NCBI GenBank assembly: GCA_947176375.1 | Contig: CAMWQM010000011.1 | Coordinates: 1-55,836, forward strand | Direction of reading: 5' to 3' | DNA length: 55,836 bases | Source of the DNA: an uncultured Helicobacteraceae bacterium | GTDB taxonomy: Bacteria > Campylobacterota > Campylobacteria > Campylobacterales > Helicobacteraceae | Shown here: piece after piece, positions 1-43,075 of the stretch | Position numbering within the stretch: position 1 is the stretch's first letter | Layout: every line of letters begins with the position of its first letter | Notes under the pieces: generated by a model | What the model saw: only the letters and a program-made list of their open reading frames with translations | What the model was told of the DNA's origin: nothing | Databases searched by the model: none | Made by a program: the position numbers and the translations under genes

Positions 1-19
1 AACATTAATTGGAAAAAGT

Positions 20-121
20 GTTTTAGTCACTTCTTAAATCACTTTATGGTAAAATTTTATTTTAAATCGTATCCCTTACCAAGAAGTTTTAGTCACTTCT
101 TAAATCACTTTATGGTAAAAT
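20..121 (+). CRISPR. Tail of a type II-C CRISPR array (two repeats, one full spacer)
   Basis: Two identical 36-nt repeats lie at 20-55 and 86-121, separated by a 30-nt spacer (56-85). Positions 1-19 are the end of another spacer, so the array continues to the left of the window. The repeat begins GTTTTAGTCACTTC and ends TTTATGGTAAAAT. It has the length, 5' GTTTTAGTC and 3' TATGGTAAAAT of the Campylobacter jejuni type II-C repeat (family knowledge). The 3' end of each repeat looks like an extended -10 box (TGGTAAAAT), as in other II-C arrays whose crRNAs start inside the repeat. The orientation is fixed by the anti-repeat in the neighbouring tracrRNA. cas9, cas1 and cas2 are not in the window. 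Confidence 0.9.
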
Positions 122-201
122 CTAGTGATGAAAAGAGCTAGTTTAAGGGGATTTGATAGATGTTTACTACATAAAATACCCTTAAATTTTAAGAATTATG
201 C

Positions 202-207
202 TATAAT
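202..207 (+). promoter_or_regulatory. -10 box of the tracrRNA promoter
   Basis: A perfect TATAAT sits 8 nt before the anti-repeat of the tracrRNA. Transcription would begin near 213-215. There is no convincing -35 box, which is usual for vegetative promoters in this phylum. Confidence 0.6.
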
Positions 208-212
208 TCTTT

Positions 213-296
213 TTAAGTGATTTAAGAAGTGACTAAAATAAGGGAGTTTAGAGTCTTCCGCAGGGTTACAATCCCTATCAAAACTCTAATTTTTAT
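213..296 (+). ncRNA. tracrRNA of the type II-C CRISPR system
   Basis: Positions 215-239 are the reverse complement of the first 25 nt of the CRISPR repeat, with 24 Watson-Crick pairs and one G-U. The RNA then folds into the expected tail: GAGTTT (244-249) can pair with AAACTC (281-286), enclosing a small AGGG/CCCT hairpin around TTACAAT (262-276). A run of T at 291-294 would terminate it. The segment GGGTTACAATCCC is the same as in the C. jejuni Cas9 tracrRNA (known family). It is encoded downstream of the array on the same strand. The ends are estimates. Confidence 0.88.
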
Positions 297-935
297 AATC
301 TAAATCCTAATCAAATTTATATAAAATCCATTAATCTCAATAAATACAAAAAGATATAGCAAAGTATACTTTGATCTTACAATTAAATTTCTAGAATCAT
401 TAATATAATTTAAAAATAAACCATAAATGAAAGTTTCAGATTTTTTCTTTAAAAAGCCTTTGTATGGCAGTAATTTTTATATCTTAATTCAAATCTCTAC
501 TAATAGCAAAATCACAACAATACTTTTAAATACAAATACATTCTTACCATAATTTCGAAGATTTCCTTAAATATTAGCTATAAATTTGCTTTAAATTCTA
601 TATTTTACAAATAAATGGTGAAAACATTTTGACGAGGACTAGACTACATTAGATGCGTTAGAGCATATAGAGATAATTTAGAAGGCATTATTCAATAATG
701 TAAAGCCATATTTTGGAATTAAATGTGGCAAAAAACATTAATTTATCGCATACAAACACAGCCATTTTTATAATGTAGATTTGACAAAATATATAAAAAT
801 ATTTACAAATCCACAACATGTTTAAAAATAAAAATCTCATAGTAAGCTATAAAATAAACAATTTAATAATAATATGATTATATTTTAAGTCATACTTTAA
901 GAAAATATAACACAAAAAATAAGGAAAAATGTTAA
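297..935. other. Intergenic, no gene recognised
   Basis: AT-rich stretch after the tracrRNA with stops in all frames. A 30-residue open stretch around 650-740 (LDALEHIEII, a stop, then KALFNNVKPYFGIKCGKK) reads like protein but I cannot assign it. Nothing else stands out. Confidence 0.5.
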
Positions 936-1166
936 ATGAAATTTTTAAAGTGGCAAAGATTTTACAAAGTAGAAAAACCATCGTTACAATTTTTGACAAT
1001 ATTGCTATATGATGCCTTTGGTAAAGCTTATGATTCTTATAGCAAGATTAAAGATAAAGATATTATTGCCTTGCATTTAGGATTCTATCTAGCAAGTTGG
1101 AGAATATATCATGGAATCTCTCAACTCCTAAAAAAGGATTATAAAATTCATGCAAAAAGCTGTTAA
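936..1166 (+). CDS. Hypothetical protein, probably a truncated fragment
   Basis: A 76-residue reading frame preceded by AAGGAAA about 9 nt before the ATG. It has no signal peptide or clear membrane segment. The stretch LHLGFYLASWRIYHGISQLL resembles, from memory, a longer uncharacterised protein in other bacteria in which a similar motif is followed by more sequence. If so, this copy ends early, just after that motif. It stands alone between the CRISPR tail and several gene fragments, in a region where most genes are broken. No function can be given. Confidence 0.45.
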   Translation: MKFLKWQRFYKVEKPSLQFLTILLYDAFGKAYDSYSKIKDKDIIALHLGFYLASWRIYHGISQLLKKDYKIHAKSC

Positions 1167-1211
1167 AATGAACTTATACTAAAAATAAAACTAACAATCA
1201 CCTTCTTTTCA

Positions 1212-1415
1212 TCATATTTTATCAAAAGAGGAGGTAAAATCGGTGATGAATGTAACAATGAGTTCTAAAATACTCACAACCCAGCTAGTGTGTGCGATAC
1301 TCACATTATACACTTTAGCTACAATGGGCAGCATACTCATCACTCCAAACTCCATACTTAAAAGTGCAAATACTCCACGCTTAGTGTAGAGAGGAAAAGT
1401 TTATTTATTTTTCAT
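1212..1415 (-). pseudogene. 5' remnant of an MFS transporter
   Basis: An ATG at 1415 follows AAGGAATTGA, but the fifth codon is TAA. The same frame then stays open to a TGA at 1214-1212. It encodes a stretch with GVFALLSMEFGVMSMLP and VAKVYNVSIAHTSWVVSI, which looks like the first membrane helix and loop of a drug-efflux-type (DHA1) major facilitator protein. Only about 60 residues of a protein normally near 400 remain. The early stop and missing body make this a dead fragment. Family assignment is by pattern only. Confidence 0.55.
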
Positions 1416-1530
1416 TTCAATTCCTTATGAGCACAATAAAAATGACATTATAAAGCCCAATGCTCAGTGCTTGCCAAGGGCTTTTATGTAAATAAAAGCC
1501 AAAATATATTAGAATCCAAAATACCAAAAT

Positions 1531-1797
1531 GTGACACTTTTTAAACCAAAAATTATTAATGATTTTTTAAATCAAATCACCTTTGGCACACTTGTAATTG
1601 CTGATAGCATTCCTTATGCTGTTCCGCTTAGCTTTTGTTATGAGGATTCACAAATTTATATGCATGGAGCAAAAGCAGGGCAAAAATACGCACTTTTTAA
1701 GCATAATCCCAAAGTTGCCTTTAGTGCGTCAAAGCCCTATGCATATATTCCTAGCCATTTTTTATTCCTACGCAGTTTTTCTTCTCTGTCTTTATAG
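1531..1797 (+). pseudogene. Fragment of a pyridoxamine-phosphate-oxidase-like flavin-binding protein
   Basis: An open frame from a GTG at 1531. It starts inside what looks like the N-terminal strand region of a PPOX/NimA-type split-barrel protein: FLNQITFGTLVIAD, then SFCYEDSQIYMHGAKAGQKYAL followed by NPKVAFSA. In this family the pattern of strand, 'F.YEDG.IYFHGA..GKK', helix, 'NP.V.F' is typical. After SHFL the frame runs into unrelated sequence and stops, at 88 residues instead of about 150-170. I see no frame that restores the C-terminal half. Probably a remnant. Confidence 0.55.
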
Positions 1798-1887
1798 AGG
1801 GGCAGTTTTGCGTGGTGGAGTATTTGGCAGAGAAAAAGACATATTTTAAATACTTTGTTGTGAAAATATGAGCCAAAAAATACACAA

Positions 1888-2091
1888 ATGAATATGGGTA
1901 AAGGCCAGTTTATCGGCAAAGAAAAAGTCACTTTTGTAGGCAAGATTATTATAGAATCTTTAAGCGCTAAAGCAAAATTTGGACAGAATCTAAAGAGCGA
2001 AGATTTTGAGCAGATTATGCTAGATTTAGAACATCGTGGAAGCACGATAGATATAGAGACGATTAAACTGATGAAGCAATTTTTAACATAA
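1888..2091 (+). pseudogene. C-terminal fragment resembling PaiB-type FMN-binding regulator
   Basis: A 67-residue frame whose core (GKIIIESLSAKAKFGQN, then a helix, then LEHRGS) resembles the C-terminus of PaiB-like FMN-binding negative regulators, where 'I..IE.K.KLSQNR...D...V...L..RGD' is typical. The N-terminal part of such a protein is absent. The preceding fragment at 1531-1797 is also flavin-fold-like, so the two could be pieces of one disrupted gene. The similarity is short and the call tentative. Confidence 0.4.
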
Positions 2092-2099
2092 AAGATTAA

Positions 2100-2340
2100 G
2101 TTTTATATTAAAAATTTATCTTATGATAGTCTATGATAATCTGCACAGCACTTAATATAAGTAAAACTAACATTGTGAGATGAGTGATTTTATAATGATA
2201 AAAAGCTTTAAGTGTGACACCAATGATGATTTACAGCAGTATCTCAAAACCAATAGAATAAATAATAAAAGCCTTTTGCCACTGCTTTATCTCTAAATTT
2301 TAAAAGTATTTTATCAAAAAATTCAAATCAAGGGGTAGGA
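2100..2340 (-). pseudogene. Remnant of a small membrane protein
   Basis: On the minus strand a frame ending near 2100 encodes IIIGVTLKAFYHYKITHLTM followed by LVLLILSAVQIIIDYHK. It has two hydrophobic stretches broken upstream by a TAA and a frame change; before the break the other frame reads KGFYYLFYWF. This looks like the tail of a decayed multi-pass membrane protein. I cannot assign a family. Confidence 0.35.
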
Positions 2341-2529
2341 GAATAAATGAGTATATCACTTAAGCCTCTAATCCTTTATTTCAAAGCATTTTGTATTCAT
2401 CACTAATGCTGAATTCCTAAGCCTTCAAGCCATTATGATTGGGCAAATAAGTGCATTAAAAATCCACAAAGGATTTATAGAATTAACCACAAAATTTCTT
2501 TAATCTTTCTATTTTTATGTGTTTTTATA

Positions 2530-3379
2530 GCTAATCCTCATTTTGTTAGCTATTGCTTGCGAAACAGAGATTGGACTGAATTTGTAAATGGCGCATTAGG
2601 TGGTTCAGCACAACCAAATATTAATGCAAAACAAATGTCTGATTTTCGCCTTAAACTTCCGCCCCTTAAAGTCCAACAACAAATCGCAGAGATTCTAAGT
2701 AGTTTTGATGACAAGATAGATTTGCTTCATCGCCAAAACAAAACTCTAGAATCCTTAAGCCTCACTCTTTTCCGCCATACTTTTATAGACAATCCTAAAC
2801 GCAATGAGTGGGAGGAAAAACCTTTAAGCGAGATTGCAGATTTTCTTAATGGTTTAGCTTGTCAAAAGTTACCACCCCAAAATGAAATAAACAGATTGCC
2901 TGTTTTAAAAATTAAAGAACTTCGGGAAGGCATAACAGAATCTTCAGATTGGGCAACTTCAAAGGTGGATTCTAAATATATTGTGCAAAATGGAGATGTT
3001 ATTTTTGCTTGGTCTGCTTCATTAATGGTAAAAGTTTGGGCTGGTGAAAAGTGCATTCTTAATCAACATTTATTTAAGGTGAGTTCTAAGGAGTATCCAA
3101 AATGGTTTTATTATTTTTTGGTGCTTGTTTCATTTGGAAAATTTTATTTCTATTGCTTCAGCTCAAGCCACAACAATGGGACATATTAAAAGAAAGGATT
3201 TAGACAATTCAATATGCGATATTCCACCTAAAGATTTTTTAGATTCTATGGATAAACAAATCTCCCCGATTTTTGATAAAATCTACAATAACTCTAAGCA
3301 GATTCAAAACTTAGAATCTTTGCGTGATATAATGCTACCGAAATTACTAAGCGGTGAAATGGAGATAAAGAGAGATTAA
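2530..3379 (+). pseudogene. hsdS: Type I restriction specificity subunit, truncated and frameshifted
   Basis: HsdS directs type I restriction-modification to its target through two target-recognition domains (TRDs) separated by helical spacers. Here only the end of TRD1 remains (from about NPHFVSYCLRNRDW, then GGSAQPNINAKQM). It is followed by the conserved helix (PPLKVQQQIAEILSSFDDKI) and TRD2. TRD2 is broken at a six-T run at 3114-3119. Removing one T would continue the frame as YFWCLFHLENFISIASAQAT into the second piece, which ends with the usual final helix (LESLRDIMLPKLLSGE). hsdM and the HsdS N-terminus are absent. The stop lies 1 nt before rloC, so the two were one operon. Confidence 0.85.
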
Positions 3380-3380
3380 G

Positions 3381-5570
3381 ATGATTCATTTAATTACTAT
3401 CAAAAATGTAGCGAGCTATAATGAAGCCGCATTAGAAGATTTAAAAAGAATAAATTTGATTTATGGTTTGAATGGAGCAGGTAAAACTATTTTGTCAAAT
3501 TATTTAAAAGATAGAGAAAATGAGAGTTTTAAAGAGTGTGAAATTCAAGGGCTAAATGATGAAAAAATCTTAGTCTATAATCAAAATTTTATAGAAGAAA
3601 ATTTTTATTCACAGGACAACCTAAAAGGAATTTTTACTTTGTCTAAGGTTAATGCTGAAGTTGAAGAAATAATCAAAAATTCTAAAGAAACAAAAGAAAA
3701 ACTTTCTAATGAAAAAAGCGAAAAAGAAAAAAGTAAAAACGAGCTAGAAAAGAAATTAAATGACGAAGCTAATTCTATTAAAGACAAATTGTGGAAAATA
3801 AAAACTTCGCACACAGGAGGAGATAGAATCTTAGATTATTGTTTTGAAGGAGTTAAAAGCTCTAAAGATAAACTATTTGAAAAAATCAAAGATATTACAA
3901 AAGGCAATCAATCCACAAGAAGCATTGATGATTTAAAGAAAGAATTGTCTAAAATAGGGGAAAATACGCAAGAAATACCACAAGTAAGTTTGATAAATCT
4001 TGATAATGTTTTAGGCATTGAAAAAGAAGTTATTTTTAATGAAGTGGTTGTAGGAAACGAAAACAGTGTGGTTTCTACTTTAATTAAGGAATTAGGAAAT
4101 TTTGATTGGGTGAAACAAGGTTTTGAAAGTTATGTTAGGGAGGATAGTAAATGTCCATTTTGTCAGGAAAACACTATTACGAAAGATTTAAAAAATGAAT
4201 TTGAAAAATATTTTGATAAGGTTTTTAAAGAGAAAATGCAACAAATACAAAATTTATCTCAACAATACTCTAATTATTTGGAGGGAACACCAAGCCAAAA
4301 TAAATTTTTAGAGAATATATTTATAAAAGATGAGGAAAGTAATTTTATAAATCTATACTCTCAACTTTACCATAATTTAAAGACAAATGAACAATCTATT
4401 AAGAAAAAAATAAATAACCCTAGCACAAAAATTATTTTGCAATCATCGCAAGAACTATTAGAAAAATTAAACAGCTTTCTTGTGAATATACAAAAGAAAA
4501 TTGATGGGTATAATGAAAAAATTAAAAACAAAAAAGAAATCAAAGAAAATCTTAAAAATGAATTTTGGCAGATTATGCGTTGGCAATATGATGACGATAT
4601 TACAGGATATGAAAAATATAAGAATAAACAAGAATCTGAAATTAAAAAAGTTGAGACTGATATATCCAATTTGCAACAAAAAATTAAAGAACAAGATAAA
4701 ATTATCCTAGAAAATCAAGCAAAGACTATCAATATAGAAAATACTATAATATCAATTAACCAAAGTTTGAAAGATTTGGGGCTCGTTGGATTTACAATAG
4801 AAAAATACGAAGAAAAATTTTATAGAATTGTTAGAAATAAGGATAAAAATCCAAACTTTAAATTTCTTAGTGAGGGCGAAAAAATGATTATTAGCTTTTT
4901 GTATTTCTTGGAATTATGCAAAGGCAAAACATCTAAAACTGAAGAGGATAAAAAGAAAGTAATAGTTATTGATGACCCAATATCTAGCTTATCACATAAT
5001 CATATTTTTAATGTAGCCCAACTTATTAAACAAATATTTTTTAGCAAAAATAATGAATTTGAACAAATTTTTGTTTTAACTCATAATCTTTATTTTTTTA
5101 ATGAACTTCGTAGAATAGTAGAACAAGAATATAAAAAAGAAAATAAAAGGAAAGAAATGTTATCTAAAATTAGAATTTTAAAAGACGAAAATAATTTTTC
5201 TTTGTTTAATGAAATTAAAGATAATGAAATTCTAAATGACTATCAAGCATATTGGCAAATATTAAAAGACTTTGATAATCAGAAAGGATATTTAGCTATT
5301 ATTCCTAATACAATGAGGAATATTTTAGAACATTTTTTTACATTTATTGGAAAAGACTATAAAAACGAATTGAATAAATCGAACAATATTAAAGACAAGG
5401 CTTTCTTGAGATATATCAATAGAGAATCTCATTCAGATTCTGAAAATTTAAGTGATACGAAAGACATAGACATTAAAAGTTTTGAGGGATGCTTTAAACA
5501 GATTTTCACAAATTTGGGATATGAAGAGCATTATAATATTATGATGAATGTTGATAACCAAGCCAACTAA
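3381..5570 (+). CDS. rloC: RloC-type anticodon nuclease (ATPase with zinc hook)
   Basis: RloC is a tRNA-cutting nuclease linked to type I restriction genes; it excises the wobble nucleotide of target tRNA, and is thought to act as a last-resort antiviral device. The 729-residue protein has a Walker A motif GLNGAGKT (29-36), a long coiled coil interrupted by a zinc-hook-type CPFC (258-261), a second coiled coil, an ABC signature-like SEGEK (497-501) and Walker B VIVIDDP (527-533). The C-terminal nuclease domain keeps R646-N-I-L-E650 and H684 within RESHSD, matching the Arg/Glu/His triad known from PrrC. Length is near that of known RloC. It starts 1 nt after the hsdS remnant. No frameshift is seen, unlike the restriction genes around it. 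Confidence 0.85.
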   Translation: MIHLITIKNVASYNEAALEDLKRINLIYGLNGAGKTILSNYLKDRENESFKECEIQGLNDEKILVYNQNFIEENFYSQDNLKGIFTLSKVNAEVEEIIKNSKETKEKLSNEKSEKEKSKNELEKKLNDEANSIKDKLWKIKTSHTGGDRILDYCFEGVKSSKDKLFEKIKDITKGNQSTRSIDDLKKELSKIGENTQEIPQVSLINLDNVLGIEKEVIFNEVVVGNENSVVSTLIKELGNFDWVKQGFESYVREDSKCPFCQENTITKDLKNEFEKYFDKVFKEKMQQIQNLSQQYSNYLEGTPSQNKFLENIFIKDEESNFINLYSQLYHNLKTNEQSIKKKINNPSTKIILQSSQELLEKLNSFLVNIQKKIDGYNEKIKNKKEIKENLKNEFWQIMRWQYDDDITGYEKYKNKQESEIKKVETDISNLQQKIKEQDKIILENQAKTINIENTIISINQSLKDLGLVGFTIEKYEEKFYRIVRNKDKNPNFKFLSEGEKMIISFLYFLELCKGKTSKTEEDKKKVIVIDDPISSLSHNHIFNVAQLIKQIFFSKNNEFEQIFVLTHNLYFFNELRRIVEQEYKKENKRKEMLSKIRILKDENNFSLFNEIKDNEILNDYQAYWQILKDFDNQKGYLAIIPNTMRNILEHFFTFIGKDYKNELNKSNNIKDKAFLRYINRESHSDSENLSDTKDIDIKSFEGCFKQIFTNLGYEEHYNIMMNVDNQAN

Positions 5571-5581
5571 ATATTTTTATT

Positions 5582-5636
5582 TTCCACATTTCAATTTGCA
5601 CCCAACTTTTGCTATAATATCCCGCAAAATGTGGAA
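5582..5636 (+). promoter_or_regulatory. Promoter of the toxin-antitoxin pair bracketed by a 10-bp inverted repeat
   Basis: TTCCACATTT (5582-5591) and AAATGTGGAA (5627-5636) form a perfect 10-bp inverted repeat 35 nt apart. A TATAAT (5613-5618) lies between the arms. The position, just upstream of the antitoxin, suits an operator for autoregulation by the antitoxin. It could also be part of the rloC terminator. Function is inferred. Confidence 0.45.
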
Positions 5637-5671
5637 TCCTAAAGGCAGATACAACAAGGGAAGGAACAAGA

Positions 5672-5902
5672 ATGACCTTAATTATTACAAACGCAAATAA
5701 ACAATTTGCAAAAGCGGTAAAGAGTATGGCAAAGGCATGTGATTCCAAGATAAAAATCATAGAACAAAACGAAACTTTCTTAGAAAAGCAGCCAAGCGAT
5801 GAGCTTTTGGAAGCTATTAGAGAAGTGCGAAATGGGGAAGTAGAGCGATATGAAAGCTTTGAGGATTTCAAAAAGGCAATGCTAGATGAAGTATCGCATT
5901 GA
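5672..5902 (+). CDS. Antitoxin of a YafQ/RelE-type toxin-antitoxin module
   Basis: A 76-residue acidic protein encoded directly before, and overlapping by 17 nt, a RelE-fold toxin. It starts TLIITNANKQFAKAVKSMAK and ends in an acidic, probably unstructured toxin-binding tail (LLEAIREVRNGEVERYESF). This is the layout of small antitoxins paired with YafQ toxins: an N-terminal DNA-binding/dimerisation part and a C-terminal neutralising part. AAGGAA stands about 8 nt before the ATG. The assignment rests mainly on size, charge and partner; I do not recognise the exact antitoxin family. Confidence 0.7.
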   Translation: MTLIITNANKQFAKAVKSMAKACDSKIKIIEQNETFLEKQPSDELLEAIREVRNGEVERYESFEDFKKAMLDEVSH

Positions 5903-6161
5903 ACATTCCAAACGATTCAAAAAGGCACTCAAAAAGCTTTGCCTTGATGATGTGAATCTTATTTTGCACGTTGTTGGCAAGCTTGCCAATGATGAGCCTT
6001 TGGATTCTAAATATAAAGACCATAAGCTTAAGGGGAATCTTGAGGATTTTCGCGAATGCCATATTAAGCCAGACTTACTGCTCATCTATCAAAAGCAAGA
6101 GGATATTCTAATCCTTACTTGTATCTCTGTAGGTAGCCATAGCATACTTTTTAAACTCTAA
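5886..6161 (+). CDS. YafQ-family toxin (RelE-like mRNA interferase)
   Basis: A 91-residue basic protein. YafQ toxins bind the ribosome and cut mRNA in the A site, and are held inactive by the co-encoded antitoxin. The C-terminal half carries the family pattern: LDSKYKDHKLKGNLEDFREC, then HIKPDLLLIYQ, then a strand and GSHSILF, with His and Asp residues where YafQ has catalytic ones. The start overlaps the antitoxin by 17 nt, giving coupled translation. It lies between rloC and hsdR, so the pair is nested inside a type I restriction locus. No damage is visible. Confidence 0.8.
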   Translation: MKYRIEHSKRFKKALKKLCLDDVNLILHVVGKLANDEPLDSKYKDHKLKGNLEDFRECHIKPDLLLIYQKQEDILILTCISVGSHSILFKL

Positions 6162-6169
6162 GGCAAACA

Positions 6170-8738
6170 ATGCAAGAACCTCAAAAGCTTGATGAAAACG
6201 CGGTAGAATCCTTGCTCCTGCAACATTTAGAAAATGCAGGATACACTTACAAAAGCGGCAAAGAGCTAGAGCGCGTCAGCGAGGAGTGGATACTTGAGGG
6301 CGCATTTAAAGAGGCGGTGCGGAGGATTAACTTTGCGGATTCCAAACCTTGCAATCTTAACCTAAGTTATGAAATCCAAGAGCAGCTTATAAGCGAGGCA
6401 TTGGCTAGACTTAAAGCCCTTGAAAATGAGGAACTTTTAGAAGCAAATGCGAAATGCCACGCTTATCTTACGCAGGATATCCCGCTTGAAGTGCTACTTG
6501 ATGGTGAAATGCGAGGCATTCTCTTGCAAGTGCTAGATTTTGAAAACCCGCAAAACAATCACTTTTTGTGTGCTAATCAACTCCATTTTGAATCTAAAAT
6601 GCCCAAACGCCCTGATGTTGTGCTCTTTATCAATGGCTTACCCTTAGTGGTGTGTGAGCTTAAAAATCCTCTAAATCCAAATGCTACCTTGCAAAACGCC
6701 TATCATCAGATTCAAACTTACAAGGCGCAGATTCCTATGCTTTTTATCTCCAATGCGCTATGTATGGTAAGCGATGGGCTAAATAGCAAGGTGGGGAGTT
6801 TGAGTGCAGACTTCACACGCTTTATGGTGTGGAAAAACGAGGATAAAACCAATACGCAAATGCCCCAAATACCTGATGTATTAAAGCCTCACAATCTTTT
6901 GGAATTTACGCGCTTTTTTATCCTCTTTGAAAAAGAGACTTTTTATGATAAAGCAGGCTTATCCACGACACAAATCAACAAAAAAATCGCTGCCTATCAT
7001 CAATACTATGCGGTGCAAAAGGCAATAGAATCCGCTAGAAGCGCAATGAATGGAGACAAAAGAGGAGGGGTGCTCTGGCACACGCAAGGGAGTGGCAAAA
7101 GTCTCACAATGGTGTTTTTTAGTGCAAAGGCGATTGCGAGCTTTGCCAACCCCACGTTTTTACTCATCACGGATAGAAATGACCTTGATGAGCAGCTTTT
7201 TGGCACTTTTGCTAGAGCAAAGGAGCTTTTACGCACAGAGCCGATACTCGCAACGAGCACACAGGACTTAAAAGCAAAGCTTAAAAGGGCAAGTGGAGGC
7301 ATTGTCTTTAGCACGATTCAAAAATTTAGAAGCGAAAAAGAAAGCTTTGAATGCTTAAGCAAGAGGGAAAATATCCTCGTGCTATGTGATGAAGCCCACA
7401 GAAGCCAATATGGCTTTGAAGTGCGACTTGATGAGGAGGCGCAACTCCGCTATGGCTATGCAAAATATTTGCGAGACGCGCTACCAAATGCCACTTATCT
7501 AGGCTTTAGCGGCACGCCGATAGAAAAGGCAGACGCGGACACAAGGCGCGTTTTTGGAGAATACATTGATATTTATGATATTGCAAGAGCGGTAGAGGAT
7601 AAGGCGACTTTGCCAATTTATTATGAAAGCAGGTTAGCTAAAATTGCTTTAAGCACAGAGGGACAAGAGATTTTAAGCGCGCTAGATTCTAAACTAAGCA
7701 AAAGTGAGGAGCAAGAGAAAATCAACGCCAAAGCCACAAGATTATGCGAGATTGTCGGGGCAAAGGATAGACTACAAACTATTGCAAAGGATATTTTAGA
7801 GCATTTTACACAGCGACAGAAGATTTTGCAAGGCAAGGCGATGATTGTTTGTATGAGCCGAGAAATCGCAGTGTCTTTGTATGAGCAAATCGTGCATTTA
7901 AATCCCTTGTGGCATAATGAGGATTCCACAAAGGGTAAAATCAAAGTGATTATCACCGCAAAGAGCGATGATGGAGAAAAGATAGGCAAACACCACACGA
8001 GCAAGGCGCAAAGAAGCGAAATCGCTAAAAGGCTTAAAAAGCATTGATGATGAACTACAAATGGTTATTGTGTGCGATATGTGGCTCACAGGCTTTGATG
8101 TGCCACCCCTACATACGCTTTATATGGATAAATTCCTAAGCGGACATAACCTTATGCAAGCCATAGCGAGGATAAATCGCGTGTATAAAGACAAACCGGC
8201 GGGGCTAGTGGTGGATTATTTAGGAATTGCCAATGAACTAAAAAATGCACTAGAATTTTACACTCAAAGCGGAGGCAAGGGCGCGTTTGTGCAGGATAAA
8301 GACAAAATCATTGACAAAATGCAAGAAAACTATGAAATTTTGATGCAGATGATTCACAGAATCAACCCGCTAGACTATTTCACACTTGATAGTCAAGGCA
8401 AGCTTGCATTGATTGCCCAGCCTGATTTTATCACACAAGAACTCTTTGAATGGGCGTGTGAGGAGGTGCAGAGCAAAAAGGGCATAGACTGCTCCAATGC
8501 GCGATTATTGCGCTTTGAAGAGGGACTTTGCGTGCAGATACTACATATCGGCTCGTATGATGAGGAGCCACAAAGTCTCGCAAAAATAGAGGAATTTATC
8601 ACTCGTAATGGCTTGCAAAATGACATCGGCAAAGATAATCTCACAAGAGCGCACCACGAAATCTATTTGAGTAATCCAAACAAAACTCCCACGCATAAAT
8701 TTAAAACAATTTTACGCATTCCTGTGCGTGATGGGTGA
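6170..8738 (+). pseudogene. hsdR: Type I restriction motor subunit, frameshifted, fused to a GyrI-like C-terminus
   Basis: HsdR is the ATP-driven DNA translocase and nuclease of type I restriction enzymes. The first piece (6170-8047) has the nuclease residues D149 and E163-L-K165, Walker A QGSGKS with K310, and a DEAH box at 407-410. At an A5 run (8036-8040) the frame is lost; with four A it would continue as [20 protein letters not shown] into 8061-8738, which holds helicase motif VI ([11 protein letters not shown]). Near 8345-8390 the HsdR sequence stops matching the family. The remaining ~115 residues ([43 protein letters not shown]) match the C-terminus of GyrI-like ligand-binding proteins. 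The normal HsdR C-terminus (total about 1000 residues) is missing. Confidence 0.85.
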
Positions 8739-8797
8739 AAGGCTGACATTTGCTGCAAATTAGGCTTTTAGTTCAATTTGTTTATAGCTTGGTTTGG

Positions 8798-8803
8798 TAT
8801 AAT
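8798..8803 (+). promoter_or_regulatory. -10 box before the type II methyltransferase
   Basis: TTTGGTATAAT contains TATAAT at 8798-8803, 51 nt before the methyltransferase start. This suggests that the restriction pair has its own promoter and is independent of the hsd remnant. Confidence 0.5.
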
Positions 8804-8853
8804 ATTGGATTCGAAATTACAATAGAAAATAAGGAAAGTTTAAGGAGGATTTT

Positions 8854-9780
8854 ATGACCGCAATAATAGAGAGTATGCAAAAGGATTCTAATGTGGAATC
8901 TACATTAAACTATAATATTTATAACAAAGATTGCATAAAGGGGCTTAAAATACTTCCTAATGATTCTATTGATTGCATTATTACCGACCCACCTTATTTC
9001 ATTGATGGTATGGGGAGTGAATGGAATGATACAAATCTTAAAACCAAAGCTTCAAAAAGTGGAGTAATTGGGGGCTTACCTGTGGGTATGAAGTTTGATA
9101 AAGCTCAAGGGGAGAGATTGCAAGAGTTTATGAATCCTCTAGCAAATGAGTTTTATAGAATCTTAAAGCCCGGGGCATTTTGCATAGTGTTTTCACAAGC
9201 AAGGCTTTATCATAGAATGGCAATGAGTTTGGATTTAGCAGGGTTTGAAATACGAGATATGTTAGTGTGGAAATATGAGGGACAAGCAAAGGCATTTTCT
9301 CAAACACACTTTATCAAAAAAGATAAGAAACTCACAGAGATACAAAAAGAATCTTTAATCAAAGAATTGGAAGGATATAAAACACCTCAATTAAAACCTC
9401 AAATTGAACCTATGGTAATGGCACAAAAACCAAAAGATGGAACATTCGTGCAAAATTGGCAAAAGCATAAATTAGGGCTTATTAATACGAAAGAAAGTTT
9501 AGATGGTAAGTTTCCTAGCAATGTAATGGAGGTCTCTAAGCACACAAGAAAAAGTGAAAGCAATATAAAAATAGAACATTTAACACCAAAACCCGTGTGT
9601 CTTATCTCTCATCTTATCAGGCTTTTTACACAAGAGGGGCAAATCGTGCTGGACCCCTTTATGGGAAGTGGCTCTCACGGTATTGCTGCCTTAAACAATC
9701 ATCGCTTTTTTGTAGGCTATGAGATTGAGAAAAAATATTTTGAAATAGCAAAAAAACGAATAGAACAAGAAGTTTTATAA
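8854..9780 (+). CDS. Type II DNA methyltransferase (beta class, adenine-N6 or cytosine-N4)
   Basis: Transfers a methyl group from S-adenosylmethionine to a base in a specific DNA sequence, protecting it from the neighbouring endonuclease. The catalytic motif IV, T-DPPYF (D45-P46-P47-Y48), lies near the N-terminus. The SAM-binding motif DPFMGSG (267-273) lies near the C-terminus, followed by YEIEKKYFEIAKKRI. This order defines the beta class. The length of 308 residues is normal. An AAGGAGG stands before the ATG. The gene is intact, and 14 nt separate it from the endonuclease gene. The target sequence cannot be read from the protein. Confidence 0.88.
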   Translation: MTAIIESMQKDSNVESTLNYNIYNKDCIKGLKILPNDSIDCIITDPPYFIDGMGSEWNDTNLKTKASKSGVIGGLPVGMKFDKAQGERLQEFMNPLANEFYRILKPGAFCIVFSQARLYHRMAMSLDLAGFEIRDMLVWKYEGQAKAFSQTHFIKKDKKLTEIQKESLIKELEGYKTPQLKPQIEPMVMAQKPKDGTFVQNWQKHKLGLINTKESLDGKFPSNVMEVSKHTRKSESNIKIEHLTPKPVCLISHLIRLFTQEGQIVLDPFMGSGSHGIAALNNHRFFVGYEIEKKYFEIAKKRIEQEVL

Positions 9781-9794
9781 AGCAGGATTTTAAG

Positions 9795-10526
9795 GTGAAT
9801 GAGCAAGAAATTTTAGAAACTTTCAAAATAATTACTAAATATTACGAAGAATGCCTTAAAGATTATGGTGTAAAATCTATAAAATTAAAAGATTCAAAGG
9901 GAAATTACACCAAAGATGCTTTAGTTCTTGTATATTTGGCACGAAACTATCCAAATACAAAAGCAATTTCAAAGACAGAATTAACAGATTTTGTAAGAAA
10001 ATTTTATCCCGATGTGAGTGATGTGCAACAAGCAAGGCATTTAAGCAAACAAGGCGGATATAATATTATTTCGGGCACAAGAGGAGATATAGGGCAGAAG
10101 ATTCCAGCAGGATACTATCAACTTATCACGTTAGAAAAACCTTATCTTTCATTCAAACCAAATAGAAGAAACGGAATAGAATCTGCAGATTTTGAAGAAT
10201 TGAAAAAGGAATATGATTATAAATGTGCGACTTGTGGAAGCGTGGAGGGAAAACCTCACAATATTCGCAAAAATGAGATTACAAAATTACAAGAGGGACA
10301 TATGAATCCGAGCCTACCGCTAGAAATTGGCAATATTATCCCCCAATGCCAAGTGTGTAACCGACCTGATAGGGATAGATGGATTTATGATAAAACAGGG
10401 AGAGTGATAGAAATAGCCGATTCTGATGATGGCAAAAGAGTGGTTGAAAAATATTTTAAAAGAGTAAGCACACATACAAAGGAATATTTTTTAGAATTTT
10501 TGAAAAAGCTTTTGAAATTGAGATGA
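9795..10526 (+). CDS. HNH-type type II restriction endonuclease
   Basis: A 243-residue protein following the methyltransferase at 14 nt. The C-terminal half forms a zinc-bound HNH-like nuclease: C144-x2-C147, then GHM with H169 and NP, then C185-x2-C188 followed by N189-R and DRDRWIYDKTGRVIEI. The N-terminal half is probably for DNA recognition (a winged-helix-like section around residues 35-100). Start is GTG with AAGG about 6 nt upstream. The pair would form a complete restriction-modification system. I recognise the nuclease fold but not the enzyme or its specificity. Confidence 0.8.
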   Translation: MNEQEILETFKIITKYYEECLKDYGVKSIKLKDSKGNYTKDALVLVYLARNYPNTKAISKTELTDFVRKFYPDVSDVQQARHLSKQGGYNIISGTRGDIGQKIPAGYYQLITLEKPYLSFKPNRRNGIESADFEELKKEYDYKCATCGSVEGKPHNIRKNEITKLQEGHMNPSLPLEIGNIIPQCQVCNRPDRDRWIYDKTGRVIEIADSDDGKRVVEKYFKRVSTHTKEYFLEFLKKLLKLR

Positions 10527-10543
10527 TTAAATAAGGAACTCCA

Positions 10544-10819
10544 ATGCGCTACTTCATCGGCATAGCATCAAAAAATCATATTCAAATAGGACAAGCAGGG
10601 GGATTTTGCCAACTCTGCCACGGCAAAGCCGCACCGCTTAAAAGAATGAAGCAAGGGGATAAAATCATTTATTATAGCCCAAAGCTCACTATGGAATCTA
10701 AAGAGCCTTATCAAGCTTTCACTGCACTAGGCGAAATCGCAGATGAAAATGTGTATCAAGTGGAGATGTTTAAGGGATTTTTACCTTTGCCAAAATCTTT
10801 TAGAATCTCAATAATATGA
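10544..10819 (+). pseudogene. EVE-domain protein, 3' end deleted
   Basis: EVE domains are PUA-like folds, some of which bind modified bases and which often sit near restriction genes. This reading frame starts like the family: MRYFIGIASKNHIQIG, then GGFCQLCHGKAAPLKRMKQGD, then IIYYSPK and EPYQAFTALGEI. It keeps to about VEMFKGFLP. From about 10786 the DNA is the antisense of the aldo/keto reductase gene and the protein ends at 91 residues. Complete members have about 145-150. It follows the HNH endonuclease by 17 nt, so it was probably in the same operon. Confidence 0.8.
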
Positions 10820-11676
10820 TAGTTTGCTTCCATTGCATCAGGTTGAAATCTAGGGAATGAAGCTCGATTATCATTTTTTGCATCAAATTTTGTATTTTTA
10901 GTTAGTTTGCCACTTAGATATCCACGATTAAGCGGAGAATAAGCTACAAAGCCAATTTTTAGTTTCTCAAGAGTAGGGAATATCTCATTCTCTACATTAC
11001 GCCACATCAAATGATATTCACTTTGCACTGCTGTAATTGGACAAATTTTATGTGCTTTTTGTATGGTATTTGCGCTCAATTCACAAACACCAAAACGAGC
11101 AACTTTACCTTCTTTGATTAAATCTTTCACACATAAAGCTACTTCTTCAATTGGTGTTTTAGGATCAAAGCGGTGCTGATACAAAAGCGGGATTTGCTCT
11201 AAATGTAGACGCTTTAGGGAATTTTCTACAACTTCACGAATGCGTTTTGGAGAGGAATCTAAAGTGTTTATATACTTGCCAAAACCAAATTTAGTTGTGA
11301 TAAAAATCTTTTTATTATAGGGTTTTAGCAACTCACCTACAAGAATCTCATTACTATCAGGTCCATAGACTTGTGCAGTATCAAAAAGCGTGATACCAGA
11401 ATCAATTGCTTTTTCTAATATTATTAAAGCCTGTTTTTTGGAAAGCTTAGCAGAGCGATGATAATTTAACCCCATACATCCAAAAGCAAGAGCTGAAACT
11501 TCAAAAGCATAATTACCATCACCAAATGTGCGTTTAGGCATTAGAATCTTATTTGTTTTATTTGTCTCTGCAAACAGAGTATTAAAGCCTCCTGCGCTTA
11601 GTGCTACGCCAAGCACTGCATAAGTTTTTAAAAATTCTCTGCGAGAATATAGGCTTTGTGATGATATGTTTTCCAT
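10756..11676 (-). pseudogene. Tat-exported aldo/keto reductase, C-terminus deleted
   Basis: Aldo/keto reductases reduce carbonyls with NADPH. The ATG at 11676 is chosen because AAGGAG lies 7 nt upstream; an in-frame start 42 nt earlier lacks this. A twin-arginine signal follows (SRREFLKTYAVLGVALSAGG). The barrel has GCMGLNYHRSA, FDTAQVYGPDSNE (catalytic Asp and Tyr) and FITTKFGFG (catalytic Lys). Family members then continue to about 340-370 residues with a conserved IPIPGT segment. Here the protein stops after IIEILKDFGK with a short foreign tail (GKNPLNIST) read from the opposite strand of the EVE gene. The cofactor-binding C-terminus is lost, so it is probably inactive. Confidence 0.8.
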
Positions 11677-11753
11677 TTTTTGCTCCTTAAAAATAAAAAT
11701 TTTATAATTATAAAGCATTACACTTAGTGTTTATCAAGGGCTATAATGTGATT

Positions 11754-20206: not shown

Positions 20207-23032
20207 TTAAGCTTTTTCAATTCTGCATAGTCCGCATTTTGTCTCAGGACACGCAGTATTATAATCAAATCCATAGCTTGTAACTAAACTAGCAGCTTCA
20301 CCTATTGCATAAGGTTCTGTGCCTTTTGGATATTTATCAAGTAGGCTTTGTCCGCTATATACACCCGAGAAATTTTGGGGTAAAAATACGCTGTTTTCAT
20401 CTACACGATAAGAATACCTTGCCTTTACTAGAATCTTAGTATATGATGTCCCATGAACCCATACCATATCCCCATCTCTTACTCCAAGTTTTAGAGCAGT
20501 ATCTGGGTGGATTTCTACAAACATCTCTCCTTGCACTTCAGCTAGATATTTCGCACTTCTAGTTTCTGTGCCTGTTCCCATATGTGCTACAAGTCTTCCT
20601 GTTAGCATATTAAGTGGGAATTCACTCTTCCAATCTTTTTCTTTCTGCCTCGAGATATATTTAATATTTGCCCTAAAATGGTCTTTTTTATCTGGGAAGC
20701 TAGGATATTTATCAACTAAATCGTTTCTAAAGCTATGCAAAGGCTCTCTATGAAGTGGAATCTTATCATACCAATTCCAAGCTACCATTCTAGCTTTTCC
20801 ATTGCCATAAGGGCATATTCCTGCCTCTAATGATTTAGAAACTAGTATATTGCTATTATCAGTAGCGAAAGTTGTGCCTTTTACTTTCTCTTTTTCTTCA
20901 TTACTTAATTTTATTCCTAGCACACTCTCAATATTTTCAGCAGTAATTGCAGGGTGTCCTTTAATTTTGGAATCTGGTAAGCCTCTTAAGCTCATCATAT
21001 TTGTTCCATCAGGTGCAGTTATGCCCCAATTTACTCTAAAGCCCATACCACCTTTCATAACAGGTATATCATCAGCATACATTATTGGAGTTCCTGGGTG
21101 TTTCTCACTCCAGCAAGGCCAAGGTAGTGCATAATATTGTCCTTTCATAGGACCTTTGCCTTCTAATGTAACGCTATCAAACATATGCCAATTATCACAA
21201 TGCTCTTTTAATCTTTTTGCACTAAGTCCTTGTAATCCGATGCTTCTAATACTTTGTGCCATTTCTGTTGTTGCATCATCAGGCCAAATAAATTCGCTTC
21301 TACCATCTTTTTTAGCAATCTCATATAAAGATTTTTGATATTCATTTTTAAAGCCGAGTCTATGTGCTAAATCAAATAAAATATCGTGGTCTTCCCTACA
21401 CTCAAACATAGGCTTGATTACTTGATATCTCCATTGATAGCTTCTATTTGTAGCTGCCACACAACCGCTTGTTTCCATTTGAGAGGCTGCAGGAAGTAAA
21501 AAAAGATTATCTTTTTTATCAGTAATTACCGCTACATCATTTACATAAGGATCGATAAATACGAGTAATTCAAGTTTATCAAGCGCTGCTTTTGTTTTAT
21601 CGAGTAAGGTTGTAGTTGAGATTCCATTGCCTATAACTATCATTGCTTTAATTTGTGTGTCTGCGTTGTTTGCATAATTTTCTTCATCAAGCACACCAAA
21701 TCGCCAAGTAGATAGTGCATAGCCGGTTTTCTCCATCATTTCTTTGCTTTTAAATCTACTTTTCATCCACTCATAATCTACATACCAATGCTTGCAGAAA
21801 TGTCTCCAAGGTCCTTCGCCTAATCCATAGTATCCTGGAAGTGAATCAGAGAGATTGTTCATATCGCTTGCACCTTGCACATTATCGTGTCCTCGAAGGA
21901 TATTTACTCCACCACCTTTTTTACCAATATTGCCTAGTATTAGTTGTAAGATAGGCATTATTCTTGTGTTGTTTGTACCGATTGTATGCTGTGTTAAGCC
22001 TTGATTCCAAATCAGGCTTGCAGGTTTTGCTTTTGCCATTTCTTTTGCAATTCTTATTATTGTATCAGCTGGAATCCCTGTAATATCTTCTGTTACTTCT
22101 AGGCTGTATTTTTGAGCCTCTTTGAAAATCTCCTCATAGCCATAAACTCGCTCTTTTAGATATTTTTCATCATATAGTTTATTTTTTACAATAACATTTA
22201 TCATTCCATAGATAAAGGCTACATCGGTTCCACTTCTAATTCTTACATACTCATTTGCTTTTGCAGCAGTTTTACTAAAGTGAGGATCAACGCATACAAT
22301 CTTAGCTCCAGATTCTTTTGCCCTTAAAATATGTACCATTGATACAGGATGATTTACTGCAGGATTTGCACCAATTATTAATATAAATTTAGAAAACATC
22401 ATATCTGCTATATGGTTTGTCATTCCACCATATCCAAAAGTATTTGCCACACCGGCAACTGTTGGAGAATGTCAGATTCTAGCTTGATGGTCTATATTAT
22501 TAGTGCCAAAAAATGCTGCAAATTTCCTAATGTAGTAACTTTGCTCATTGCTAACTTTTGCACTTCCTATAAACATAACACTATCTGGTCCATGTTTTTC
22601 TCTTAATTCGTTTAATTTTTTAGCAATCTTATCCATAGAGCTATCCCAAGTAGTTTTTTGCCATTCGCCATTTACTTTCTCAATAGGATAGCGAAGTCTT
22701 GTCGTGCTTCTAACCCTATCGATCATATCAGCACCTTTGCAGCAGTGTCCGCCTTGAGAGATAGGGTGGTCTTGCGCTACTTCTTGCCTAACCCATACAT
22801 CATCATTTACTTCAGCTATGATTCCACAGCCCACAGAGCAGTGTGTGCAAATGGTTTTGATTTTTTTAGAATTTGGAAAATTCTCTTTTAATTCACTGCT
22901 TGTAGCTTCTCTTAAGATTCTACCATCATCATTACCAAATACTTGCGTAGTAGCGATTGCAGAACCAAGCAAAGAGAGCTTTAAAAAATTTCGTCTATTG
23001 CTTTTGGTATTTTGCAAATTTGTATCACTCAT
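20207..23032 (-). CDS. fdhA: Formate dehydrogenase catalytic subunit, selenoprotein
   Basis: Oxidises formate to CO2 in the periplasm with a bis-MGD cofactor, a [4Fe-4S] cluster and selenocysteine. The coding region is continuous only if the TGA at 22474-22472 is read as selenocysteine (residue 187): the context is QARI-U-HSPTVAG, exactly where FdnG/FdoG/FdhF proteins have Sec. A hairpin follows the TGA. Other marks: twin-arginine leader (SNRRNFLKLSLLGSA), cluster motif CTHCSVGC with CCKG, and molybdopterin-binding segments such as GANPAVNHPVSM and NMLTGRLVAHMGTGTETRSA. Total 941 residues, normal for the family. A GTG at 22450 gives an apparent second start, which is not needed. Confidence 0.95.
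22444..22474 (-). promoter_or_regulatory. Selenocysteine codon and bacterial SECIS-like hairpin in fdhA
   Basis: Reading the minus strand, TGA (22474-22472) is followed 13 nt later by TTGCC-GGTGT-GGCAA (22458-22444), a 5-bp stem with a 5-nt loop containing GGU. Bacterial SECIS hairpins that recruit SelB have a GGU-type loop about 11 nt after the UGA. The fit supports recoding. selA, selB and selC are not in the window. Confidence 0.75.
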
Positions 23033-31520: not shown

Positions 31521-32876
31521 TGCTTGACCTTTAGAGAAAATTGATAAGGAATTTTTTTAGATTCTACAATAATTTTTGAGATAAATTTTCTCTAAACTCT
31601 ATTTTAAACTTTAAATAATGGAATCTAATTTTTCAAAAGAAAGGAGTAATCTTATCTAAGTTGGAGTAAAATTTCTATAAGATTGCGTTATAGGCAAAAC
31701 ATTATAATGATAGTCAAAAGCATCTGTGATATTCATTGTATCAGGTATATAAATAGTTAAATAATTAAAAATTTAAAATAATTAGTCAATTTTATTTTCA
31801 TTAATATCCATAAATATCCATAGATGACTTTATTGCATTTATCTTTAAGTAATTATATTTTCTTACCCCTTCTTGCTTTATTTTATTTCTAAATTCTTTA
31901 TATTTTATGCAGAGTTTTAAATTGCTTGTTTTATTCTATCAAGTCCATATATAGTTTTATTAATCATTTTAATGCCAAAAATCATAATGTTTAAATTAAA
32001 AGTTATAGGATTCTTACTAATGGATTAATCCACATAAAATCTTTATTTTCTCCGTATATCCCTTTTGTCTTGTAAAATAAAATATATATGCTTAAGTTTA
32101 TATTTCATATTTATCCTTTTGATTAGTTTGTTGTTAGGGTAAGATTGTCTTTAAAAATGCTTTTTTGGCGATAGATTTGTAGAATTTACATCGCTGCATT
32201 TATGCTAGATTCTGCTTTATTTGCAATTTTTTTGAATCTAAATATAATGATTTTGATAAATTTCTAAAATTTGCTAAATAGAGAGAGGGGGGGGGTAGAA
32301 TTAGATTTTTTAGAATGGAAACTATATGAAATCTATTTGTTTTAAAGTGGAACCTGAATTTATGCTATAAAATCCTTTGAATTTGTTTTTAAATTAGGAT
32401 TTTTTGCGTGGAAGTTAAAACAAAATTTTATATATTTAGTAAAAAATCTTTAGAAAAAAGTATCCATAAAACCCTATAAAACTATTAGTATGCGTTTGTA
32501 ACTAGATTTGCATTTTTAGTGATTGTTTAAAATAATCCGCAATATTTACAAATTTAATTTTTAATTAAGAGGAGGCTCTTATCGCTTTGCTGTTGTAAGT
32601 ATTCTGGTGTTTTATTTTAATTTTTAAATTTGTGACACATCTTACTTTCTATCCATATTTTGGTAGTATTATTAAAGAGTTTATAAGCCTATTCTTGTAA
32701 AAAACTTATTTTTAGAATCTGCATTACAAATTGCATAAAATTTAAGAGGTTGAAATATTTGCATTTGCTTAATTTAGCTATTTTTTAAAAACTTTTTATG
32801 CTAGAATTTGCATTTTAAATTTTATTAATTTTTTAAGATAAGCATTTAAAAATAATTTGCAAACAAAAGGATGAAT
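31521..32876. other. Gene-poor region with a nine-G tract
   Basis: About 1.35 kb with stops in all frames. On the minus strand near 31800-31930 a short stretch reads IKYKEFRNKIKQEGVRKYNY then LKINAIKSSM, possibly the tail of a dead gene. A run of nine G occupies 32287-32295 after GAGAGA. A TATAAT stands about 50 nt upstream of the tract. No RNA gene recognised. Confidence 0.5.
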
Positions 32877-41260: not shown

Positions 41261-43075
41261 AATCTAAATTGATTTTAGAATTTAATTTTGTATGCATTAT
41301 ATTCTAAATTTAGATTCTAATTTTGGAATCTAGAATTGATTTAAAAGGTTAAGATTTAGATTCTGCTTTAAACTCCAATCTACCATCCTTCTTACTTTTA
41401 ACAAGATAGATAAAAGGAGAGTTTATATTTAAATACTAATTTTCTCACCTGCAAATATCTCCTTAATCCTTTTATAAAAAGATTTAGGAAAGTATTAGAA
41501 TGTTTCCAGCTAGAATCTAAATTAAATGTGGAATCTAAAGTTAGAATCAAAGTTGGATTCAATATTAGAAACTGCGATAGTTTCCACTCCTTTAAAATTT
41601 AAAATAGATTTAGAACCTAAAATTAAATATTTGTGAAATATCTTATAATATGGGATTTGTGAGTATTAGTAGTTTTTAAGCAAAAAATTTAACAAAAGTA
41701 TTTAATGCTAAATTCATTTTTAGGATTTTATAAGTTTGTTGGAGCTTTTAAAAAATGTGTGTGGAAAAAAAGAGGATAGATGCTATTTTGGCTAAAAAAT
41801 GTTTGATAATAGTTGGTTAAAACTTGTGATATTTAATTAAATATTAAAAATTTAAATGATTATAAGATAAATACAATTTAAAATATACACAACCTCTAAA
41901 TCATAACATTCAAATAATGCTTAAAAATTCCTACTAGTTAGTTCCAATTCTATGCTAGATAGAACAATCTATCTTTATTTAAGTTTTTTTATTTTTATAG
42001 ATTCTATCTAGCGATTTACAGCCATTTTGTATGCAAAATTCAGCACAAGCCTTTTGTAGATAAAATATTGCTTTTCTCATCTGTAAATTCTGCCTTTGGT
42101 GTCAGAGAGTTTATCTACATCATATAAATTTCCCACAAACGCACAAGCCCTATCTTTGCCTAAATCACAAGCTTTCTTTAGATAGTTTTTTATTTAGCTC
42201 TAATGCTTTTTCTATACTCTACTTGCACTTTTGGATAGCATATTATACATACTAGCTATTAGGAACCTCCTATAAAGCTTTCAGCTGCTTAAAAATTACA
42301 GAGATATGTGTAACTTAATATTTAGAGAATATCATCTCCCATTTGATTTACTGTATTATTATAGTTGGAGTTGCATCTCTCCAAGTCCATCTTGAGATAC
42401 CATAGCCGAAGTCAGCTCTATTATAGAATGCCTCTAAAAGCACATAAGCCTCTGTTTGGTTCCTTATAGGTTGGTTCTCTATTATTCACATTAAAGCCCC
42501 TTTTTTGTAAATTTTATTGTATATATTTTTTTTAAGGTTGTATTTTAATACTAAATAATTTTCATTGTAGGTTTTAAGCGGTTTTGTGGAATTTTGCAAT
42601 AAATACTACAATAGATAAAATATATTTTAGAGATGGATTGTGCTTTCTATTACACCAAACCTTTGAGCTAAAATGTTGATACTAGCCCTTTGATTATGAT
42701 ATCGTGTGTAATGGCTTTTTGATAGTAGTGTTTTCTGGCAATATTTAGGAAAAAGACAAAGAAGAGGAAATACATTTAAGAAATATAAATATAAGTTTTA
42801 TGTTGTCGTGCTTATTTATTGTAGGATTTATAGTTTTAAAAATATTATTTATTTTAAGGAAAGTTTTATATTTATTAGCACTAATATTTATTATTGGTGA
42901 CTGGTAGCAGATTGGAAAAGATTGGTAAAAAGGACTATTCTGTAAAAAATCATTTTTTATCTCATTGTGTGCTTGGCTTCAGTAATTATCTCAATAAATA
43001 TAATGCTTAATAAATAATTTTAGAATTAATGTTATACTTCCGCTTCTGATTTTATAATTAATATGGATAAAATAA
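41261..43075. other. Long gene-poor region with decayed sequence
   Basis: About 1.8 kb with no intact gene, except for the Sel1 remnant listed separately. Many GAATCT/AGATTC words occur at 41270-41600. Near 42340-42480 the minus strand holds protein-like pieces without a frame long enough to name. No RNA genes seen. Confidence 0.5.
41995..42290 (-). pseudogene. Remnant of a Sel1-like repeat protein
   Basis: The minus strand encodes NYLKKACDLGKDRACAFVGN followed by LYDVDKLSDTKGRIY, after which stops occur. The C-x7-C spacing, with DLGKDRAC, is the mark of Sel1-like (Hcp-type) repeats. One repeat and parts of flanking ones are recognisable in broken frames. An intact relative lies at 48991-49881. 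Confidence 0.55.

Follow-up and report, generated by a model that had tools for sequence, protein, structure and literature searches.

The rloC gene and its product

The window analysed here, a stretch of 55,836 nucleotides from an uncultured Helicobacteraceae bacterium, carries at 3381..5570 on the plus strand an intact open reading frame of 729 aa, which begins with ATG and contains no internal stop codon. A profile search matched Pfam AAA_13 to residues 12-709 of the product (E 1e-122), while the PADLOC profile PDC-S06 matched the entire protein (3e-231) and the PADLOC PrrC profile matched its C-terminal part (residues 447-719, 5e-17). RloC has been defined by a PrrC-like ABC ATPase with an inserted CX2C zinc hook, a C-proximal Arg-X3-Glu-X36-52-His motif, often with Ser before the His, and a length of 658-897 aa (PMC2610378). 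The window protein falls within this length range and possesses a complete set of ATPase motifs: Walker A (GLNGAGKT at 29), signature (LSEGEK at 496), Walker B (VIVIDDP at 527) and His loop (LTHN at 566). The hook, CPFC at 258-261, lies between the Walker A and signature motifs, and the nuclease triad reads R646-X3-E650-X33-S683-H684, with Ser directly before His. The Glu-His spacing of 33 is three below the published range; it was accepted as agreeing with the definition, and close homologues have 33-38. R646, E650, S683, H684 and CPFC are invariant across ten aligned homologues, the others of which are 30-49% identical to the window protein. PrrC, in contrast, is 341-416 aa long, has no zinc-hook insert and is associated with a complete type IC hsd locus, none of which applies here. 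Judged by its sequence, the product of 3381-5570 is thus an RloC by the published definition, and every motif named in an earlier sequence-only reading of this DNA, which had reported an intact RloC with Walker motifs, CPFC and R646/E650/H684, was found at its position.

Sequence and helix content suggest a coiled-coil insert in this RloC. A structure prediction from three sequences was too poor for use (mean pLDDT 48), and a search of solved structures with the RloC sequence gave weak matches, the best being the Walker A region of Rad50 (E 0.1). The frequency of promoter-like sites 5' of rloC did not exceed that in shuffled sequences, and Rfam gave no match within window positions 1-11000. 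RloC relatives in a plasmid collection were all distant (<60%), and nothing in that collection closely matched window positions 1-10600.

Remnants of a type I restriction locus around rloC

Upstream of rloC lies an hsdS relic (2530..3379, plus strand) that has lost its N-terminal ~115-150 residues and carries a frameshift near 3105-3140. HsdS proteins of relatives match the window only from their residue ~114-148 onward (window from about 2460-2530), in two frames, and the 3' end of the relic (3270-3364) is 90-97% identical to the hsdS of relatives. Downstream, an hsdR relic (6170..8419, plus strand) has a frameshift near 8045-8047 and lacks the C-terminal ~280 profile positions; its likeness to HsdR ends near 8410, where it is fused to the 3' part of a gyrI-like gene (8410..8738, plus strand). 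In a relative (genome G153), a gene 95% identical to this gyrI-like piece stands by itself, upstream of the hsd operon. HsdM proteins of relatives gave no match anywhere in the window, which bears out, together with the truncations and frameshifts, the earlier statement that hsdS and hsdR around rloC are broken and that hsdM is not seen. The idea that hsdM simply sits on another contig was rejected: ~2.5 kb of sequence that is not hsdM precedes hsdS, and the genome yielded no type I hsdM besides the contig C3 copy described below.

Between rloC and the hsdR relic, an intact YafQ/RelE-type toxin gene of 91 aa (5886..6161, plus strand) was recognised by a profile match. It is overlapped by an upstream ORF of 76 aa (5672..5902, plus strand), which has no profile match and is likely the antitoxin gene, judging from its position. 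DNA 97% identical to this toxin gene region also precedes hsdR in G153.

The flanks of the island were also compared with G153. At 1561-2098 there is a relic 75% identical to a 211-aa gene (L082:1701-2336) that lies ~4 kb from hsdR in that genome; therefore, the left flank has decayed too. On the right, 10529-10788 is 96% identical to the DNA immediately upstream of the hsd operon of G153, indicating that this edge has been rearranged as well, and a truncated ORF with an EVE domain (10544-11718) continues into the 3' end of an opposite-strand aldo/keto-reductase gene. At 8854-10526, an intact gene for a DNA methylase precedes an ORF of 243 aa that has paired CxxC motifs and matched no profile; the two may form a type II restriction-modification pair in which the nuclease is HNH-like.

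Several other features of the window were recorded. Two exact copies of a CRISPR-like repeat lie 66 bases apart at 20-121, and a 26-base near-exact inverted copy at about 212-240 is followed by sequence resembling a type II tracrRNA; contig C6 at 41890-42054 was listed together with these repeats, and a 1104-aa open frame with a Cas9-type HNH_4 domain is found on another contig than the window. A G9 run at 32287-32295 lies between two genes in a 1.3-kb stretch without long ORFs, and a six-frame reading around it revealed no clear split gene. On the minus strand at 22450-22472, an in-frame TGA separates two formate dehydrogenase ORFs (context QARI-TGA-HS) and most likely encodes selenocysteine.

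Exchangeable cargo between hsdS and hsdR

Five relatives whose hsd genes belong to the same family have other genes in the hsdS-hsdR gap, four of which encode predicted defence proteins: an OLD/AriA-like ATPase-TOPRIM protein (G142), an Mrr-STAND protein (G145), an AAA_15/AriA-like ATPase (G139) and an AbiP2-type reverse transcriptase (G011). The fifth, G153, has an unassigned 267-aa ORF on the other strand. In the three of these relatives whose hsdS 3' junction was compared, the conserved stretch of hsdS after which the cargo starts is the same one as in the window. None of the four genomes whose hsdR is closest to the window copy is an RloC carrier, and rloC itself was found between hsdS and hsdR of more complete operons in G006 and G036. 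With the same hsd flanks enclosing different cargo in relatives, RloC is one passenger among several in an exchangeable hsdS-hsdR slot, as has already been described for Campylobacter hsd loci.

Age of the decay and selective constraint

The first 623 residues of the window HsdR are 96-98% identical to the intact HsdR of G034, G142, G145 and G153, which belong to other genera of the same family. Pairwise dN/dS values for hsdR between the window and each of these four relatives ranged from 0.15 to 0.27 (for G034, dS was 0.06 and dN/dS 0.21). With the frameshift column set aside, window-specific hsdR codon changes comprised four synonymous and four non-synonymous ones, and so few non-synonymous changes would be expected only ~6% of the time on a purely neutral branch. 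hsdR evolved under constraint until recently, and the high identity of the dead gene to intact copies, together with its low dN/dS, places the death of the hsd genes in the recent past. The G+C content of the window hsdR (43%) differs from both the window mean (31%) and rloC (25%), so hsdR was probably acquired horizontally.

Because the restriction genes died recently, rloC has had little time to decay, and its intactness says little about selection. From the lesion density of the hsd remnants, the chance that a 2.2-kb neighbour would remain undamaged without any selection was estimated at ~0.08-0.28. The earlier suggestion that the survival of rloC without a partner is telling is thus not upheld. 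The comparison of dN/dS between rloC and hsdR that had been proposed as a check was informative on the hsdR side, where it dates the death as recent, but not on the rloC side, where the nearest homologues are 49% identical or less.

Linkage of RloC to restriction genes

That anticodon nucleases normally come with a restriction partner, as the sequence-only reading assumed, proved correct for PrrC but not for RloC: RloC is rarely linked to restriction-modification, and only 8 of 73 published orthologues are linked to type I restriction (PMC2610378). We surveyed 12 homologues with an intact or near-intact frame, a small sample that is not random. Type I-like genes adjoin rloC in five of the 12 (the window relic, G006, G036, G066 contig C128 and L034) and other methylase genes in two (type ISP in G029 and MmeI-like in G078), while neither kind lies beside rloC in the remaining five (G021, G104, G066 contig C57, G090 and L035).

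Within the family, an RloC match was present in 13 of 121 genomes, so most are without the gene; none of four sampled congeners carries rloC. Among the family's ten closest homologues, four are broken or fragmentary (G118, G020, G120 and G136). The frequent loss of rloC in relatives, which the sequence-only reading had named as a finding that would tell against it, was therefore observed in part.

A second type I locus and other methylases

Contig C3 of the same genome carries a second hsd locus of the EcoR124 type (type IC-like) with an intact HsdR of 1008 aa. The frame is lost in hsdM at a G9 run (L015:9780) and in hsdS at an A7 run (near L015:7165). Phase variation in this group of bacteria is usually marked by long runs of G, and from the G9 tract the C3 system is probably a switchable one, captured in its off state in the assembly. 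The C3 HsdR is not a duplicate of the window HsdR, as the two share only ~24% identity. Thus, a second hsd locus does exist elsewhere in the genome, as had been conjectured, but its hsdM and hsdS are out of frame in the assembly. Contig C9 encodes two further N6 methylases unlike type I enzymes, one with no specificity gene beside it and the other with a specificity region in the same chain.

Alternative explanations

The reading that we favour is that an ordinary RloC was left in a recently wrecked operon. The restriction locus might instead be alive, its breaks being assembly errors or phase-variable switches, given that both small frameshifts, of hsdS and hsdR, lie near short homopolymers (T6, A5) and that the C3 locus does have a G9 tract. 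However, the loss of the hsdS N terminus, the loss of the hsdR C terminus through fusion and the absence of hsdM are independent of the frameshifts and already largely refute this scenario; moreover, there is no long G or C tract within the hsd/rloC locus, and we consider a live locus extremely improbable. Granting that the locus is dead, selection could have preserved rloC as an intact stand-alone defence gene from the death of the restriction genes onward. Its open frame and the preservation of all catalytic and hook residues between two broken neighbours fit such a history, as do the stand-alone homologues in other genomes. The same state would be expected anyway after so recent a decay, though, the nearest rloC homologue is too distant for constraint to be measured, and RloC homologues are frequently broken. 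Selection of this kind is accordingly conceivable, but we are inclined to doubt it.

It is also conceivable that RloC is silenced in trans by the C3 type I enzyme, as PrrC is by EcoprrI, and becomes active once the C3 enzyme is inhibited. The C3 locus resembles EcoR124, and PrrC is associated with loci of this type; its HsdR is intact, and an interaction in trans was proposed by the discoverers of RloC (PMC2610378). Yet both hsdM and hsdS of this locus are out of frame in the assembly, its HsdR bears little resemblance to the one once encoded beside rloC, and hsdR and hsdM mutants of Acinetobacter baylyi neither activate nor block RloC (PMC3874168), making silencing in trans very unlikely.

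Comparison with known systems

The closest parallel is the RloC of Geobacillus kaustophilus (Davidov and Kaufmann 2008, PMC2610378), which has the same domain order, a CX2C hook and an R-X3-E...(S)H motif (triad R692, E696, H737), and whose gene also adjoins an hsdR relic, with a full hsd locus elsewhere in the genome. In that species, however, the relic and the full hsdR share ~98% identity within one genome, whereas the second locus in the window genome is only distantly related; furthermore, the G. kaustophilus gene lies within an IS4-family transposon, and no transposon was noted in the window. In related bacteria, RloC-type genes (rloC, rloE and rloG) are inserted in type I hsd loci of Campylobacter jejuni, according to the account of Miller et al. 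2005 cited in PMC2610378; set against the loci described there, the window operon has no hsdM, and its hsdS and hsdR are truncated. The RloC of A. baylyi (Klaiman et al. 2013, PMC3874168) is an anticodon nuclease that has its own DNA-break switch and is active without hsd genes, but unlike the window gene it is not linked to hsd. PrrC shares the homologous C-terminal nuclease region and triad and is likewise encoded in a type I locus, that of EcoprrI, but it has no zinc-hook arm and is without exception associated with the type IC enzyme that silences it. Nesting of a second defence gene set in a type I operon has also been described for DarTG2 (PMC12255303) and for RloF and TgvAB (PMC11411939), and DarTG2 and RloF occupy the same hsdS-hsdR position as the window cargo; the effectors differ, and the host operon was functional in the published cases that were tested.

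Implications for RloC

A defining activity of RloC is to cut tRNA within the anticodon loop and remove the wobble nucleotide. RloC is activated by DNA ends through its own ATPase, in hsd mutants too, and hsdR and hsdM mutants behave like the wild type; activation by DNA ends is established for GkaRloC and AbaRloC (PMC3874168). By analogy with these homologues, the Rad50-like ATPase of the window RloC, with its coiled-coil/zinc-hook arm, would sense DNA ends, and ATP hydrolysis would then turn on the C-terminal nuclease, which would cut tRNA anticodon loops and stop translation during phage attack or DNA damage; HsdM, HsdS and HsdR would not be needed. The suggestion in the sequence-only reading that RloC works alone and senses DNA damage itself was right in this respect, but it describes a mechanism already published (PMC2610378, PMC3874168). 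We hold with considerable confidence that the locus contains an ordinary RloC anticodon nuclease, an interchangeable hsdS-hsdR passenger in a type I operon recently wrecked in this strain, that most likely works like its characterised relatives. Since RloC is already known to function without a restriction partner, the arrangement is an ordinary one.

A bolder proposal is that the hsdS-hsdR gap is a dedicated exchange slot for second-line effectors, that RloC can survive the loss of its host operon there by virtue of its built-in sensor, and that dying hsd loci may in this way give rise to stand-alone anticodon nucleases; we regard this as speculative and rather unlikely. Current understanding of RloC is unchanged by the locus, which is a further clean example of the published view that RloC is independent of restriction enzymes. 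It also illustrates how, within one hsd family, a single site holds RloC and a toxin-antitoxin pair, an OLD/AriA-like protein, a reverse transcriptase or an Mrr-STAND protein in different relatives.
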